From assembly GCF_000219625.1 (NCBI RefSeq), contig NC_018218.1, forward strand, positions 3,472,001 through 3,536,000: a stretch of 64,000 nt of DNA, given 5' to 3'. Every line of letters starts with the position of its first letter. Within the stretch, counting starts at the first letter, position 1. A program made the position numbers and the translations under genes. The stretch is from Zymoseptoria tritici IPO323. Lineage: Eukaryota; Ascomycota; Dothideomycetes; Mycosphaerellales; Mycosphaerellaceae. Positions 58,669-63,837 of the stretch are shown piece after piece. Below the pieces are notes generated by a model, which worked only from the letters and a program-made list of their open reading frames with translations, had not been told where the DNA came from and made no database searches.

Positions 58669-61456
58669 TCAGAAGATCTGTCCATTGGCGAACTTGATAA
58701 ATGCCTCGAGATTCGGATCACGGCCGAGATACTCTCTCAACAGCTCCGCAGGATCTCTCGCACCACCGTACTGCAAGACTTGCGTGCGGTATCGCATGCC
58801 CTCGTCACTATTGAATGGATCGGCCGCGAACTTGGTGGCAAAGACGTCCTCAGCGTAGCTCTGGCACCAAAGATACGTGTACAGGCTGCCTCCGTACTGG
58901 TTTACGTAGCTCGTGAAGCTGAGTGCGGGATAGCCCCATCGATCTCCTTGTCCCAGATCGGAGGGATCTTCGAGCCCGGTCAGGTTGCGGAATTTGTCGT
59001 TGAAAATCGCGACATAGTCAGTGCTATTGATCTCGTCGATACTGGTGGCTTGGAAGACCTGTTGATCGTTGGTAGAGAAGGCAACCAGGCGCATCTGGTC
59101 GAGAGATCTGCGGACGAGGCTGGTGCTGACCACATTGGCGGCTATGTCATCAGGCAGGGTCGCTGGGGGAAGAGGAGCATTCGGGTCCGATTGCTCTTTC
59201 CTCCATGCTTCGGCAGCTTGCGGCGATAAGGATGACCTAAAGTGGATCGCGAAAGAATTAGCACGGTCAGGCACGATCGAGCACCTCGCCAGAAGCTGTC
59301 AAGATATGCTAGTGCCATGAAACTTCGACTTACCAATGCCTAGCGATACGTTTGACCGCTTCCGGTCTACGCGGATAGTTCTCCATGAACTGCGCCGGGA
59401 ACTTGTTGATCGTCAGACACTTCTTACATCTCTGGAGGGTGTACAGCAAAGCTTCTTACCTCTACGAAGTCAACTGGAACGCCGAACGTCCCATGCGTGC
59501 GCGTGAAGTTGGTCACGGAGAGTAGATCATCTGAGGGCGGAAGGGTTAGCGATAGCTCGAACGCGTAGGGTATGAGGGCAGACTGAGACCCGCTGGCATA
59601 GACCAAGAGAACATCTCGGACCGCTACAGGCCTTCTGCCCTTCGATAGTCTTACGCATGCCGTGCCCGAGTTCATGAAAGACGACTCCCAGGTCGCTGTA
59701 TTTTATCAAAGACGGCTTCAGAGCCTCGTTTTCAGACCGGATGAAGTTGGTGATGACACGCACGGACGGATAATGTAAAGTGCCGTCGGGTTTGCGATAC
59801 CCCGGGGAGAACATGTTCTCGAACCCGCCATCGGTACTCTTAAAGGGCGGGCGGTAGAACAGATCCAGGTAGAGACTAAAAAAGGGGAGGACGGGATGTC
59901 AGCGAAGTTTCGGGTCAAAAGGGCTGAGAGGCGGACTGAAACCTGCTAGCATGGACCGAGAAAGAGTCTCAGACCGCTGCAGGCCTTCTACCCTTCGCTT
60001 TACTTACTATCCACGGAAACCGGGGTCGCTGATGTTGGCACTGGCACAACTGGGATTCTTGTCGTCATCCCAAACCGCAAACATCAGGAGCGACGGGTCA
60101 TAGACCAGATCGTCTCCCTTGCCTGTCGGTGACAAGTCATCTGCGTCTTTTCCTTCAATGCGATCGAACCGGAGGCCATAGATTTCGCCGTATATGGAGA
60201 GAAGTGCTGGGATCGTAAAGTTGACCGGGAAGTACTCCTTGATCTTGTCCACGTTGACATTGTAGAGATTTTCTTTTTCGAGTTCCGGATAGATGTAACC
60301 GTCCCATTGGTATGCGATGTCCCTTTCGCCCACCAGACTGACGGCGGTCGTGTCGTTTTGCTTTGTCTGGGCAATGTCTGCTACATCGCGCTCGGTGTGG
60401 GAAACGATATTGGTGCGAATTTCTTCTAAAAACGCATTTACCCTGGTGTGGTTCTGTGCGATGTTGGCAGCCAGGCTGCACATGAGTCAAAAATCGTTTG
60501 CTTTCGGCGCTGGGGTAATGGACTTACGCATAGTCGGCATATGAAGTATAGTTGTAGAACTGTGCGATTTGCAATTGCAGCCTGACGTACTCTTCCAAAA
60601 TCGGCTCGTTCTCCGGTGCAATTCGAGACTGCGCAAGAAATAAGGTATATCTCGTTGTTGCGTTCACGGCGCTCGTCATTACTGCGACGTATACCGAGTA
60701 AGCATTGGCGTCGAAAGACAGCTTTCCGGCGTTGTCTCCAGTGGCATTCGTCTTGTCGAAAGTGTTGAGAAGTTCCGTCGGCACACCCTCAAGCTCTTCA
60801 GCCGTGAAGTAAACAGGTGCCGGAGCATTGGCGTTCTCTGCAAACTTGCTCGCAGCGTCGCCGACGCGGCCTTCCAAGTCGTGGATGTAATCACGCTGGG
60901 TGGGCGAAAATGTGAGATCGGAAAATGAGCCCCAGAGGTTTTTGAGAACGATTTGCTGCTCTTCACTCAGTTCAGTGTCGTTCACGTTTGCCTGGTAGAC
61001 CGTGTCCACAAGCTGAAAAAGCTTTTCGTTGGTGTAAATTTCGACATAGACGGCCGAGAGATTCGCTTGAACTTCATTCGTGGCTTCCGTGACGTCTTTC
61101 TTGTCTGATTGGGCGTAGGCACTGAGCGGATATAACAGAGCCGTGTTGATATTGTCGGTCTGCATATACGGGAGAATCACATTGTCGAATGTTGCATTGC
61201 CGGTGGCGACACTTGCCAGGATATTTTGCACTGTCGTCTGCGCGTTCGCAGTGAACTCGATCCCGATCTGTTTCACAGATTCGGCCGTATCGTTCCACAC
61301 AAATGGAGCCTGGGGAGGTCTCTGGAGTCCCGAAGAGAGAGTATCAACGTCTCGGCGAGTCTGCTCGTGGGGATGAGGTAAATCAGCGCTGTGGCCGAGC
61401 TGGACCAAAGCAGAGATCAGAAAGAGTGTCATGGACTTGATTCCGTGATGCGCCAT
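58669..61456 (-). CDS. Secreted M3-family zinc metallopeptidase
   Basis: Six exons: 61456-60528, 60475-60008, 59875-59655, 59530-59460, 59401-59334 and 59236-58669. They give 774 residues. A signal peptide is visible (MTLFLISALVQLGHSAD), so the enzyme is secreted or vacuolar. Many NxT/S sites fit. The zinc site is VVFHELGHGMHDLL (HExxH), with the third ligand Glu about 25 residues on in VDFVEFPAQFMEN, the M3 (thimet oligopeptidase) layout. The C-terminal RHWSSLSPQ and YLWCQSYAEDVFATKF parts also match. Members cut short peptides. Two of its five introns, 60007-59876 and 59654-59531, are homologous introner-like elements, and the latter splits the codon for the His right after HELGHGM. The natural substrate is unknown. 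Confidence 0.88.
59531..59654 (-). mobile_element. Introner-like intron A (in M3 peptidase gene)
   Basis: A 124-nt intron in sense orientation, GTAAGACTATC to CCCTCAG, phase 1. It shares with introns B and C the core AGGGCAGAAGGCCTG, a CCGAGA/TCTTGG hairpin, the block ATGCYAGCRGG...CTCAG, CTGCCCTYATACC and the tail TCGAGCT...CGCTAACCC with the branch site. Homology runs along the full intron, from donor side to branch site, while flanking exons are unrelated to those of intron C. This is the hallmark of introner-like elements described in Dothideomycetes. Confidence 0.8.
59876..60007 (-). mobile_element. Introner-like intron B (in M3 peptidase gene)
   Basis: A 132-nt intron, GTAAGTAAAGC to TTTTTTAG, phase 2 (TA|T). 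The core is AGGGTAGAAGGCCTG, the hairpin CTGAGA/TCTCGG, followed by ATGCTAGCAGG and the tail CCGAAACTTCGCTGACATCCCG. It is the most diverged of the three: the distal stem (CTGCCCT in A and C) is altered to CCGCCT, and the pyrimidine tract before the acceptor is longer. Confidence 0.78.
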
Positions 61457-62040: not shown

Positions 62041-63837
62041 TCAACGCAAGCCAGCGACATTGTTCTCCTCATCTCCAGAAAAGGCGTAATGCGAGTGCTT
62101 CCGGATCTCCGCACCCTTGTAGTAGAAGACGAAGGGAATCGCACAACACGCCAACGCGATGAATGCCAACAATGTGCTCGCCCACTGATCGCCCAGACGG
62201 TGGTACATTTGGATCGTGAATAGCACGACGGCCGCTCCCCAGAACGACCGCAAGAATGTCTTTGCCGCGAGCGCCGACGCTGCTTGATGTTGGTACGAGT
62301 CAACGAGGTAGTTGTTGCACCTGAAACAGAAGCACGGAGGGGTCAGCAGTGATTCGGACACAAATGGTATAAGGGCAGGCTGAGATCCGCTAGCATAGCC
62401 CGAGAGAAAATCTCGGGTGGCTGCAGGCCTTCTGCCCTTGGGTGCTTACGAGTTGTAGAGAAAGATGAAACCGAAGCCGACGGCCCACCCTCCCAGCGCG
62501 GGACCGGACCAGTGCAAGTGAGGATACGAAGTCCAAGCAAAGACGAACAGTCCGATCGGTATGAACCAGCAGGAGAACATCATCGGAATCAGTCTTGCCT
62601 CCGCGGGCGGCTTGCCATGGTGTCTTTCCACGAGCTGAAGGTAATGCTTGTTCACCAGCGGAGCGCAAGCGGCGCTCATGAGCACCCCGACCGCAACAGG
62701 GATGAACATCAATCCGGTGCTGGAAGCGGAGTACCCTTTTCCTTCCTGGTAGACGATTGGGTAGGCAATGAAGAACATGTAAAGCAAGCCGTAGAGTACG
62801 GACATGTACAGCGACAGGAAAAAGACAATGAGTTCCTGGAACAGCAGCTGGAACGGTCGAAGGAGGAATACCTTCAGGCGTTCGTTGAGAGGTCGCTTGT
62901 CCAGGTCCTGTTCGGTGACGAACTTCCAATCGCCAGTTTCTTTGCGCATTTTCTTTGCTCGGCGGGCAAGGATCTCGGGAGCGTAGGTCTCTGGCACGGT
63001 GAAGGTGATGAGTATGCAGCAGAATGCAGAGAGAATGAGTTGCATCCAGTATAGCCAGCGCCAGCCGAGATTGTCCGCGATGAACCCTCCTGCAAGGGGC
63101 CCGATGGCTGGTCCGATGAATGGCGCCGCGCTGAAGACAGCCATGGGCACGCCACGCTCGTTGGGGTTCCAGAGATCGGCGAGCGTGCCGCCGACGAGCG
63201 TCATTGGCGCAGAGAACATGATGCCGTCGATGGCGCGGCAGATGAGGAGTGTCTCGATGTTGGGAGCGACTGCGCAGGGTATGATGAACACCACAGCGAG
63301 GAGCAGCGTGCTGATGTAGATCTTCTGACGGCCAAGGATTTCCGATAAGGGCGCGAAGGCCATGGGTCCGATGCCGAACCCAACAACGAACAGCGAGATG
63401 GCCAGCAGAGAGACCTCCTCGCTGACTCCGAATGTCTTTGCTGGTGAGGCCACGTCGGCAGTAATGACTGCACTGTCGAATGCTACAGCGAAGCAGGTGA
63501 TGGCCACGACTAGCGTGCACCACCACTTGTAGGCTCGCGAAAAGTTTTTAGGGTTGGCAGGATCGTTGATATCGAAGGTTACGAGCTCGTAACGCTCGGT
63601 TCGGCCAGTTTTGTTCGATTGCACGGGTCGAAGGCCTCCGGTCACTTCGGTAGTGTATTCTTCCATGCATGCTTCTGCTGTGAGGGTTCTATATGGCAGG
63701 TTGAGCACATCCACGTCATCTTGGTTGGCTCCATGGGCGGGAAGTGTTGCCTCTGTCTTCTCTAGTGCAATCGATGTTGTTCTGCTGGTGCTCTCCGAGG
63801 TTGAGTCGTTCTTCTCTGGTGGTATGGCAGGTGTCAT
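62041..63837 (-). CDS. MFS drug/polyamine-type transporter (DHA1, 12 TM)
   Basis: Exons 63837-62450 and 62320-62041 are joined through TC|G (Ser), giving 555 residues. A cytosolic N-terminus of about 110 residues ends in FDINDPANPKNFSRAYKWW, the usual lead-in of fungal DHA1 carriers. Twelve membrane segments follow. The motif-A loop is PLSEILGRQKIYI, and the antiporter-type motif region is GGTLADLWNPNERGVPMAVFSAAPFIGPAIGPLAGGFI, typical of the polyamine/drug:H+ antiporter group (Flr1/Tpo1-like). A long central loop lies near RAKKMRKETGDWKF. Substrates cannot be read from sequence. The single intron, C, is introner-like and sits just before the final two membrane segments (CNNYLVDSYQ). The upstream promoter has an (AT)n TATA element. 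Confidence 0.92.
62321..62449 (-). mobile_element. Introner-like intron C (in MFS gene)
   Basis: A 129-nt intron, GTAAGCACCC to TGTTTCAG, phase 2 (TC|G). It carries the core AAGGGCAGAAGGCCTG, a perfect 7-bp hairpin CCCGAGA/TCTCGGG, ATGCTAGCGG, a distal CTGCCCTTATACC that can pair with AAGGGCAG (8 bp), and the tail CCGAATCACTGCTGACCCC. It lies in a gene with no homology to the M3 peptidase, so the shared intron sequence cannot come from gene duplication. Confidence 0.8.

Follow-up and report, generated by a model that had tools for sequence, protein, structure and literature searches.

Three related introns in two neighbouring genes

In the genome of Zymoseptoria tritici IPO323, the 64,000-nucleotide stretch analysed here as the window (C1:3472001-3536000, where C with a number denotes a contig) carries two neighbouring genes on its minus strand that are interrupted by three related introns, A, B and C, the origin of which is the subject of this report. 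The genome searched comprises 39,686,251 bp in 21 contigs, and the finished IPO323 genome, published under the former name Mycosphaerella graminicola, likewise has 39,686,251 bp in 21 chromosomes (PMC3111534). The host gene of A and B (58669-61456) is modelled, after splicing, as an M3 family peptidase of 774 amino acids with five introns (60527-60476, B, A, 59459-59402 and 59333-59237), the fourth of which ends in AAG rather than YAG. The host gene of C (62041-63837) is modelled as an MFS transporter of 555 amino acids with C as its one intron. The spliced models match the Pfam families PF01432 (Peptidase_M3, E 3.2e-74) and PF07690 (MFS_1, E 6.5e-47), bearing out the assignment of the two host genes in the initial annotation.

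Intron A (59531-59654, 124 nt, phase 1) lies in the HELGHGMHDL motif of the peptidase, B (59876-60007, 132 nt, phase 2) in its GFRGYLYLDLF motif, and C (62321-62449, 129 nt, phase 2) at FLYNS^CNNYLVDSY of the transporter, where retention of the intron brings in a stop codon one residue past the exon. Each begins with GTAAG and ends with CAG or TAG. The three had been described as full-length homologous introns in the same sense, and the boundaries given at that time prove exact to the base. They align end to end with a mean column identity of 81%, and a BLASTN search inside the window with A as the query finds C at E 8.6e-20 and B at E 8e-14. The shared core noticed at the outset, AGGGYAGAAGGCCTG, occurs three times in the window without mismatch, once in each intron. 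Pairwise identity is 64% between A and B, 72% between A and C and 60% between B and C, so that B is the most divergent of the three, as had been proposed. The argument that duplication of the host gene is inadequate as an explanation of the three introns also holds. An Rfam search of positions 59000-63000 of the window returned no match.

A genome-wide family of introner-like elements

Similarity searches with C, with a copy on C3 and with a copy on C5 each gave at least 40 scored matches, and four pattern searches gave 56, 64, 45 and 46 matches, whereas the same patterns, when reversed, gave 0, 2, 0 and 0. Merging the DNA and pattern matches yields 99 sites on 14 of the 21 contigs, A, B and C included, a lower bound since more diverged copies were probably overlooked. 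A profile built from 26 copies and run across all genome sequence finds 111 copies, 75 of which score at least 60 bits and are referred to as strong; the junction counts below leave out the remaining 36. For each copy, a script searched up to 12 nt from one projected end for the best donor and up to 14 nt from the other for the best acceptor. By this procedure the donors of the strong copies are GTAAG (58), GCAAG (6), GTACG (5), GTGAG (3), GTGCG (1) and GTATG (1), while for the last copy (C4:763398) the script failed and the donor was set by hand to GTAAG; this copy is left out of the junction table, which holds 74. The acceptors are TAG in 61 and CAG in 14 copies. A donor of the GTAAG, GCAAG, GTACG or GTGAG type together with YAG stands at or near the ends of 73 of the 75 strong copies, compared with 5.2% of 4000 random placements handled identically. 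Where long flanks are available, the frame that spans the junction is longer in the sense orientation for 37 of 46 strong copies (Wilcoxon p 2.6e-6).

A, B and C are thus introner-like elements, a kind already known in this species, since Z. tritici is named among the species that harbour them. Named families from its genome are mg01, mg02, mg05 and mg06, with copies that are 98% identical (PMC4457414). The identification made in the initial annotation is therefore upheld by 99 sites and by the splice sites at or near the ends of nearly all strong copies, and the genome-wide profile search that it had set as a test did not reveal an ordinary repeat, as the splice ends occur in the element's own orientation. 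Its claim of active or recent gain stands for the family as a whole, some copies being 98-100% identical though located on different contigs; A, B and C themselves do not belong to its youngest members. Copies on C1 and C3 are identical over 125 bases within unrelated flanks, indicating that the family moved recently. The predicted folds of six copies range from -39 to -54 kcal/mol. Only 1 of the 99 sites lies on the contigs beyond C13, where 11.5 would be expected by length.

Two further introner-like introns lie in the window. An older, diverged one (23036-23167, minus strand, 132 nt, GTAAG...TAG, 31.5 bits) interrupts a frame that, judging from a motif, we take to encode a cytochrome P450, and a weak, shortened one (7693-7783, plus strand, 91 nt, GTAAG...CAG) scores 15-17 bits with both profiles. 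Both host frames stay open once the introns are removed. Elsewhere, C2:2999928-3000035 is matched by the profile on both strands, as if an internal segment had been inverted.

A, B and C have their closest relatives elsewhere

Three copies within 3 kb exceed chance, and it had been suggested that they arose by local spreading, one intron of this neighbourhood being the source of the others. This suggestion is not borne out for A, B and C. The closest relative of A is C3:1424936 (83% identity), that of B is C11:205197 (82%) and that of C is C4:907104 (88%), all on other contigs. In a tree of 75 copies, B is the sister of C11:205197 (bootstrap 99, Shimodaira-Hasegawa-like approximate likelihood ratio 93), and a tree forced to unite A, B and C in one clade has a log-likelihood lower by 52.7 and is rejected by the approximately unbiased test (p 0.00019). 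In addition, a second, different family of introners also tends to lie near copies of the main family, a tendency that would be predicted from a preference on the side of the target but not from local copying. Under the tree model used, local spreading is refuted for these three introns, and we regard it as extremely improbable. Two points nonetheless weigh against separate insertion, the first of which also speaks for local spreading. The eight pairs of copies within 5 kb of each other show, on average, a slightly greater similarity than random pairs do (permutation p 0.027), such that a minor local component may operate elsewhere in the genome; the most alike neighbours are those of the C3 and C5 clusters. 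Moreover, the tree has few columns relative to its rows, and its bootstrap support had not settled. On balance, A, B and C most likely represent separate landings of different lineages of the family in one region, an insertion hot spot.

Clustering of two introner families

The grouping of A, B and C is not an isolated case. Among the 99 sites there are 10 pairs within 5 kb, compared with 1.35 expected, and none of 3000 simulations reaches 10. The excess persists for the 74 strong sites found without the use of flanks (7 pairs versus 0.76 expected; C7:1619845, known only from flanking sequence, is excluded), as well as for the 96 sites that remain when A, B and C are dropped on the grounds that this cluster had itself drawn attention (7 pairs versus 1.33 expected, p 0.0006).

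The second family, hereafter family 2, is shorter (about 115 nt) and related, carries the 3' end CATCCGCTGACCTTATACGCTTTGCTTTGCAG and was first met in the form of weak neighbours of main-family copies. A pattern search gives 28 matches and, with four tandem matches on C3 counted once, 25 sites. Of these, 5 have a main-family site within 1.5 kb (0.20 expected) and 6 have one within 5 kb (0.67 expected). The pattern was itself derived from three sites first seen beside main-family copies; when these are set aside, 22 sites remain, of which 2 have a main-family neighbour within 1.5 kb (0.17 expected, p 0.015) and 3 have one within 5 kb (0.57 expected, p 0.022). Co-clustering of the two families is therefore supported but not proven. 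Together with the genes that the two families share, the clustering points to hot spots on the target side. The A-B-C cluster is part of this genome-wide pattern of hot spots, which may extend down to single sites in paralogous genes.

Several of the clusters have features of their own. At C3:1427634-1428779, four tandem family-2 introns with a spacing of about 172 nt are followed by two main-family introners, in what appears to be an internally repetitive gene. At C7:1619464-1619957, three introner-like introns lie less than 500 bases apart, inside a stretch encoding APSKAPT-like repeats, and at C10:243658-265665 five introner-like copies are spread over 22 kb on both strands.

Insertion points in paralogous genes

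The M3 paralogues serve as a natural experiment on the insertion points. The closest of the M3 paralogues, which account for 58 match rows in the genome, is C9:416924-419257, 55% identical to the host of A and B over residues 11-769 in one row with one internal stop codon. The 501 bases around the two insertion points (C9:417500-418000) are open and have no intron at either point. Aligned with this paralogue, the joined exons read GGCATGC|ATGATC at A and GGATA|TCTCTAC at B, with neither a gap nor a duplication; A and B are the two copies so compared, by eye and against a gene that is 55% identical. Six of the 58 rows run unbroken across both points (C9:416924, C5:1787945, C8:2249960, C2:1619072, C8:2131701 and C11:211322). 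As for the transporter, 33 of 97 matches cross the position of C (residue 463) in one piece, 6 of them with an internal stop.

Other M3 paralogues carry introners close to the same points. In the gene at C5:2716.4-2719.5 kb, a main-family introner lies 2 nt off the point of A, within the HELGH motif, and a family-2 introner lies 4 nt off the point of B, within the GFRGY motif. We estimate, post hoc and assuming uniform placement in coding sequence, that both window introners would lie within 4 nt of introners of the C5 gene by chance roughly once in 10,000 cases. In further paralogues, introns lie 3 nt off the point of B, namely an 87-nt family-2 copy (C6:1788.4 kb), an intron of 62 nt (C3:2841.0 kb) and a shortened family-2 copy (C2:531.0 kb), recognized by a 34-nt match to the family's 3' end in which 3 bases differ. 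A 127-nt intron at HELG^H in the paralogue at C3:1730.4 kb, 9 nt off the point of A, looks like a decayed main-family copy. In the C5 gene we also noted a possible 67-nt intron (C5:2718077-2718142). It corresponds to the 3' portion of an introner and uses a donor that lies inside the element, which gives it the appearance of an introner shrunk to the size of an ordinary intron.

Inheritance of A and its C5 counterpart from before the gene duplication was considered and is ruled out by comparing the identities of the copies with those of their hosts. The C5 copy (C5:2718515) is 87% and A is 83% identical to the young copy C3:1424936, whereas identity between the two M3 genes is 38-55% over their main pieces and 32-41% over two short ones.

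It is also conceivable that introners replaced older introns at existing positions of the M3 genes, for example if exon junctions guide reverse splicing, a possibility raised for intron transposition in a review (PMC3443670). Short introns of paralogues at or beside the B site, at C2:531k and C3:2841k (GGC TAC CT^G / TT^G TAC), and at the A site, at C2:531.3k (CTT G^GG CAC), would fit such a scheme. However, simple replacement would not give the offsets of 2-9 nt that separate A and B from their paralogous counterparts, the short C2:531k intron is itself a shortened family-2 copy, and the M3 rows that are uninterrupted at both positions, like the transporter matches that cross the position of C in one piece, also count against it. 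We therefore consider replacement unlikely, although not as improbable as local spreading.

Sequence preference at the target and donor variants

The second exon begins with GYA in 20 of 74 main-family copies (p 4e-5) and in 8 of 25 family-2 sites (p 2.7e-4), compared with 2 of 70 predicted ordinary introns, and family 2 has G at position +1 in 23 of 25 sites. A preference of fungal introners for AG/GY sites has been credited to a study from 2012 (PMC8469720). GYA is identical to the trinucleotide with which the intron begins. Since 54 of the 74 copies lack this repeat, it reflects a preference and not an obligate duplication; an obligate duplication of 3 bp at the target was accordingly rejected, the more so as there is none at A or B.

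Six copies use the GCAAG donor (C2:1269239, C12:707703, C12:816509, C7:1619845, C2:2122105 and C1:656390), and in five of the six the open frames argue for the GC boundary and against a donor that lies 4 nt deeper in the intron. The exon following the intron begins with GC in 5 of the 6 GC-donor copies (4 with GCA) versus 11 of 69 GT-donor copies (Fisher p 0.0013). Such an excess would suit a donor that is copied from the target, while a tree-aware comparison had too few independent pairs. A copy that has an internal deletion and lacks a usable donor (C10:249750-249821) reads GGCA, then GAAAACC...TTTTAG and then GCA, and resembles a decayed GC-donor copy.

A possible route of insertion

How do introners reach new sites? 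Copies that extend from donor to acceptor, frames that are mostly longer in sense, the seamless junctions of A and B and the near absence of sites beyond C13 are all consistent with a step in transcribed genes that proceeds through RNA. The two ends of the introns can also pair with each other, at -18.3 kcal/mol compared with -11.5 for shuffled ends. From these features we infer that reverse splicing is the best-supported mechanism, a conclusion for which studies from 2011 and 2012 are reported to have argued already (PMC8469720). In such a scheme, the excised intron lariat would reverse splice either into a nascent RNA or into the single-stranded coding DNA of an R-loop, and the copy would then be converted to DNA. 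Some genes and sites, often with G-Y-A just after the insertion point, would be preferred targets and give rise to hot spots, and the inserted copies would later decay into ordinary introns. Little is known of the reverse-splicing step, according to the review cited above (PMC3443670). We consider it probable that A, B and C are members of a multi-copy introner family and that each was inserted separately, presumably by reverse splicing of an excised intron copy into a transcribed target.

A different route would be that of a non-autonomous DNA transposon, akin to a miniature inverted-repeat transposable element, whose ends happen to be splice sites. In two young copies, the region after the donor can pair almost completely with the region before the acceptor (-27 and -32 kcal/mol), much like inverted repeats. 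The subterminal complementarity begins inside the donor and, of the six copies shown, is strongest in these two. The GYA with which exon 2 begins in 20 of the 74 copies also resembles a 3-bp target duplication. However, most copies have no GYA past the acceptor, there is no duplication at A or B relative to the intronless paralogue, and splice sites are kept near both ends in almost all strong copies, whereas an element blind to orientation should leave intergenic and decayed copies behind. The ascomycete families are reported as an outlier that lacks target-site duplications (TSDs) and terminal inverted repeats (TIRs) (PMC9860276). A DNA transposon therefore appears quite improbable as the source of the family, more so than the replacement of older introns.

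Several observations weigh against separate insertion by reverse splicing and should be set beside those that favour it. Only 41 of the 75 profile matches reach from profile position 3 or less to position 128 or more, which means that the ends of the other copies were picked nearby. In 9 of 46 copies it is the antisense frame that is longer, and a test of open frames in short windows is weak (62 of 66 in sense, 51 of 66 in antisense and a fraction of 0.74 at random). The paired ends show no covariation, as a copy's own ends fit no better than the ends of other copies (p 0.37). The null model of the clustering tests is uniform placement on C1-C13 and is blind to gene density and expression, co-clustering of family 2 is much weaker once the sites that provided its pattern are omitted, and the 70 ordinary introns that served as a control are short introns predicted by a regular expression, not taken from an annotation.

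Perhaps introner insertion is aimed at particular sites instead of spreading locally. Different families would then hit the same few nucleotides of the GYxYLDLF and HELGHGMH motifs in M3 paralogues of ancient divergence and accumulate in shared genes. The G-Y-A targets would mimic the intron's own 5' splice site, much as though the machinery of insertion recognized its target as a splice site. We offer this extension tentatively, as a possibility that is clearly less secure than separate insertion itself. Since introners of different families sit a few bases apart in paralogues, candidate target marks, such as sequence, transcription, R-loops or exon junctions, can be tested on a short list of loci.

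Comparison with known introner systems

The origin of new spliceosomal introns is an old open question, and Z. tritici is among the few species with documented recent gains. The multiplication of introners in this species has itself been published before. What the present analysis adds is the separation of two ideas that clustering alone cannot tell apart: A, B and C are not derived from one another, yet the region attracted all three.

A, B and C resemble the introner-like elements of Dothideomycetes (PMC4457414), which are likewise multi-copy, reside in unrelated genes of the same species, include near-identical copies and are longer than ordinary fungal introns. We place the three introns in this kind of element without choosing among the named mg families. 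The same paper records genes with two introner-like elements as well as parallel gains close to other introns; what is seen here in comparison are neighbours that are not sisters, two families in shared genes and nearly coincident insertions in paralogues of one genome. The introners derived from DNA transposons (PMC9860276) share with the present family the repetition of introns across many genes. However, they have TSDs and/or TIRs, whereas A and B lack a TSD and the set as a whole shows no obligate repeat. The sister stwintrons and related introns of Hypoxylaceae (PMC8469720) likewise multiply on the coding strand only, have inverted symmetry from end to end and show no flanking duplication. 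Unlike the copies described here, the stwintrons are nested introns of other sequence and are reported to be without a preference for AG/GY sites.

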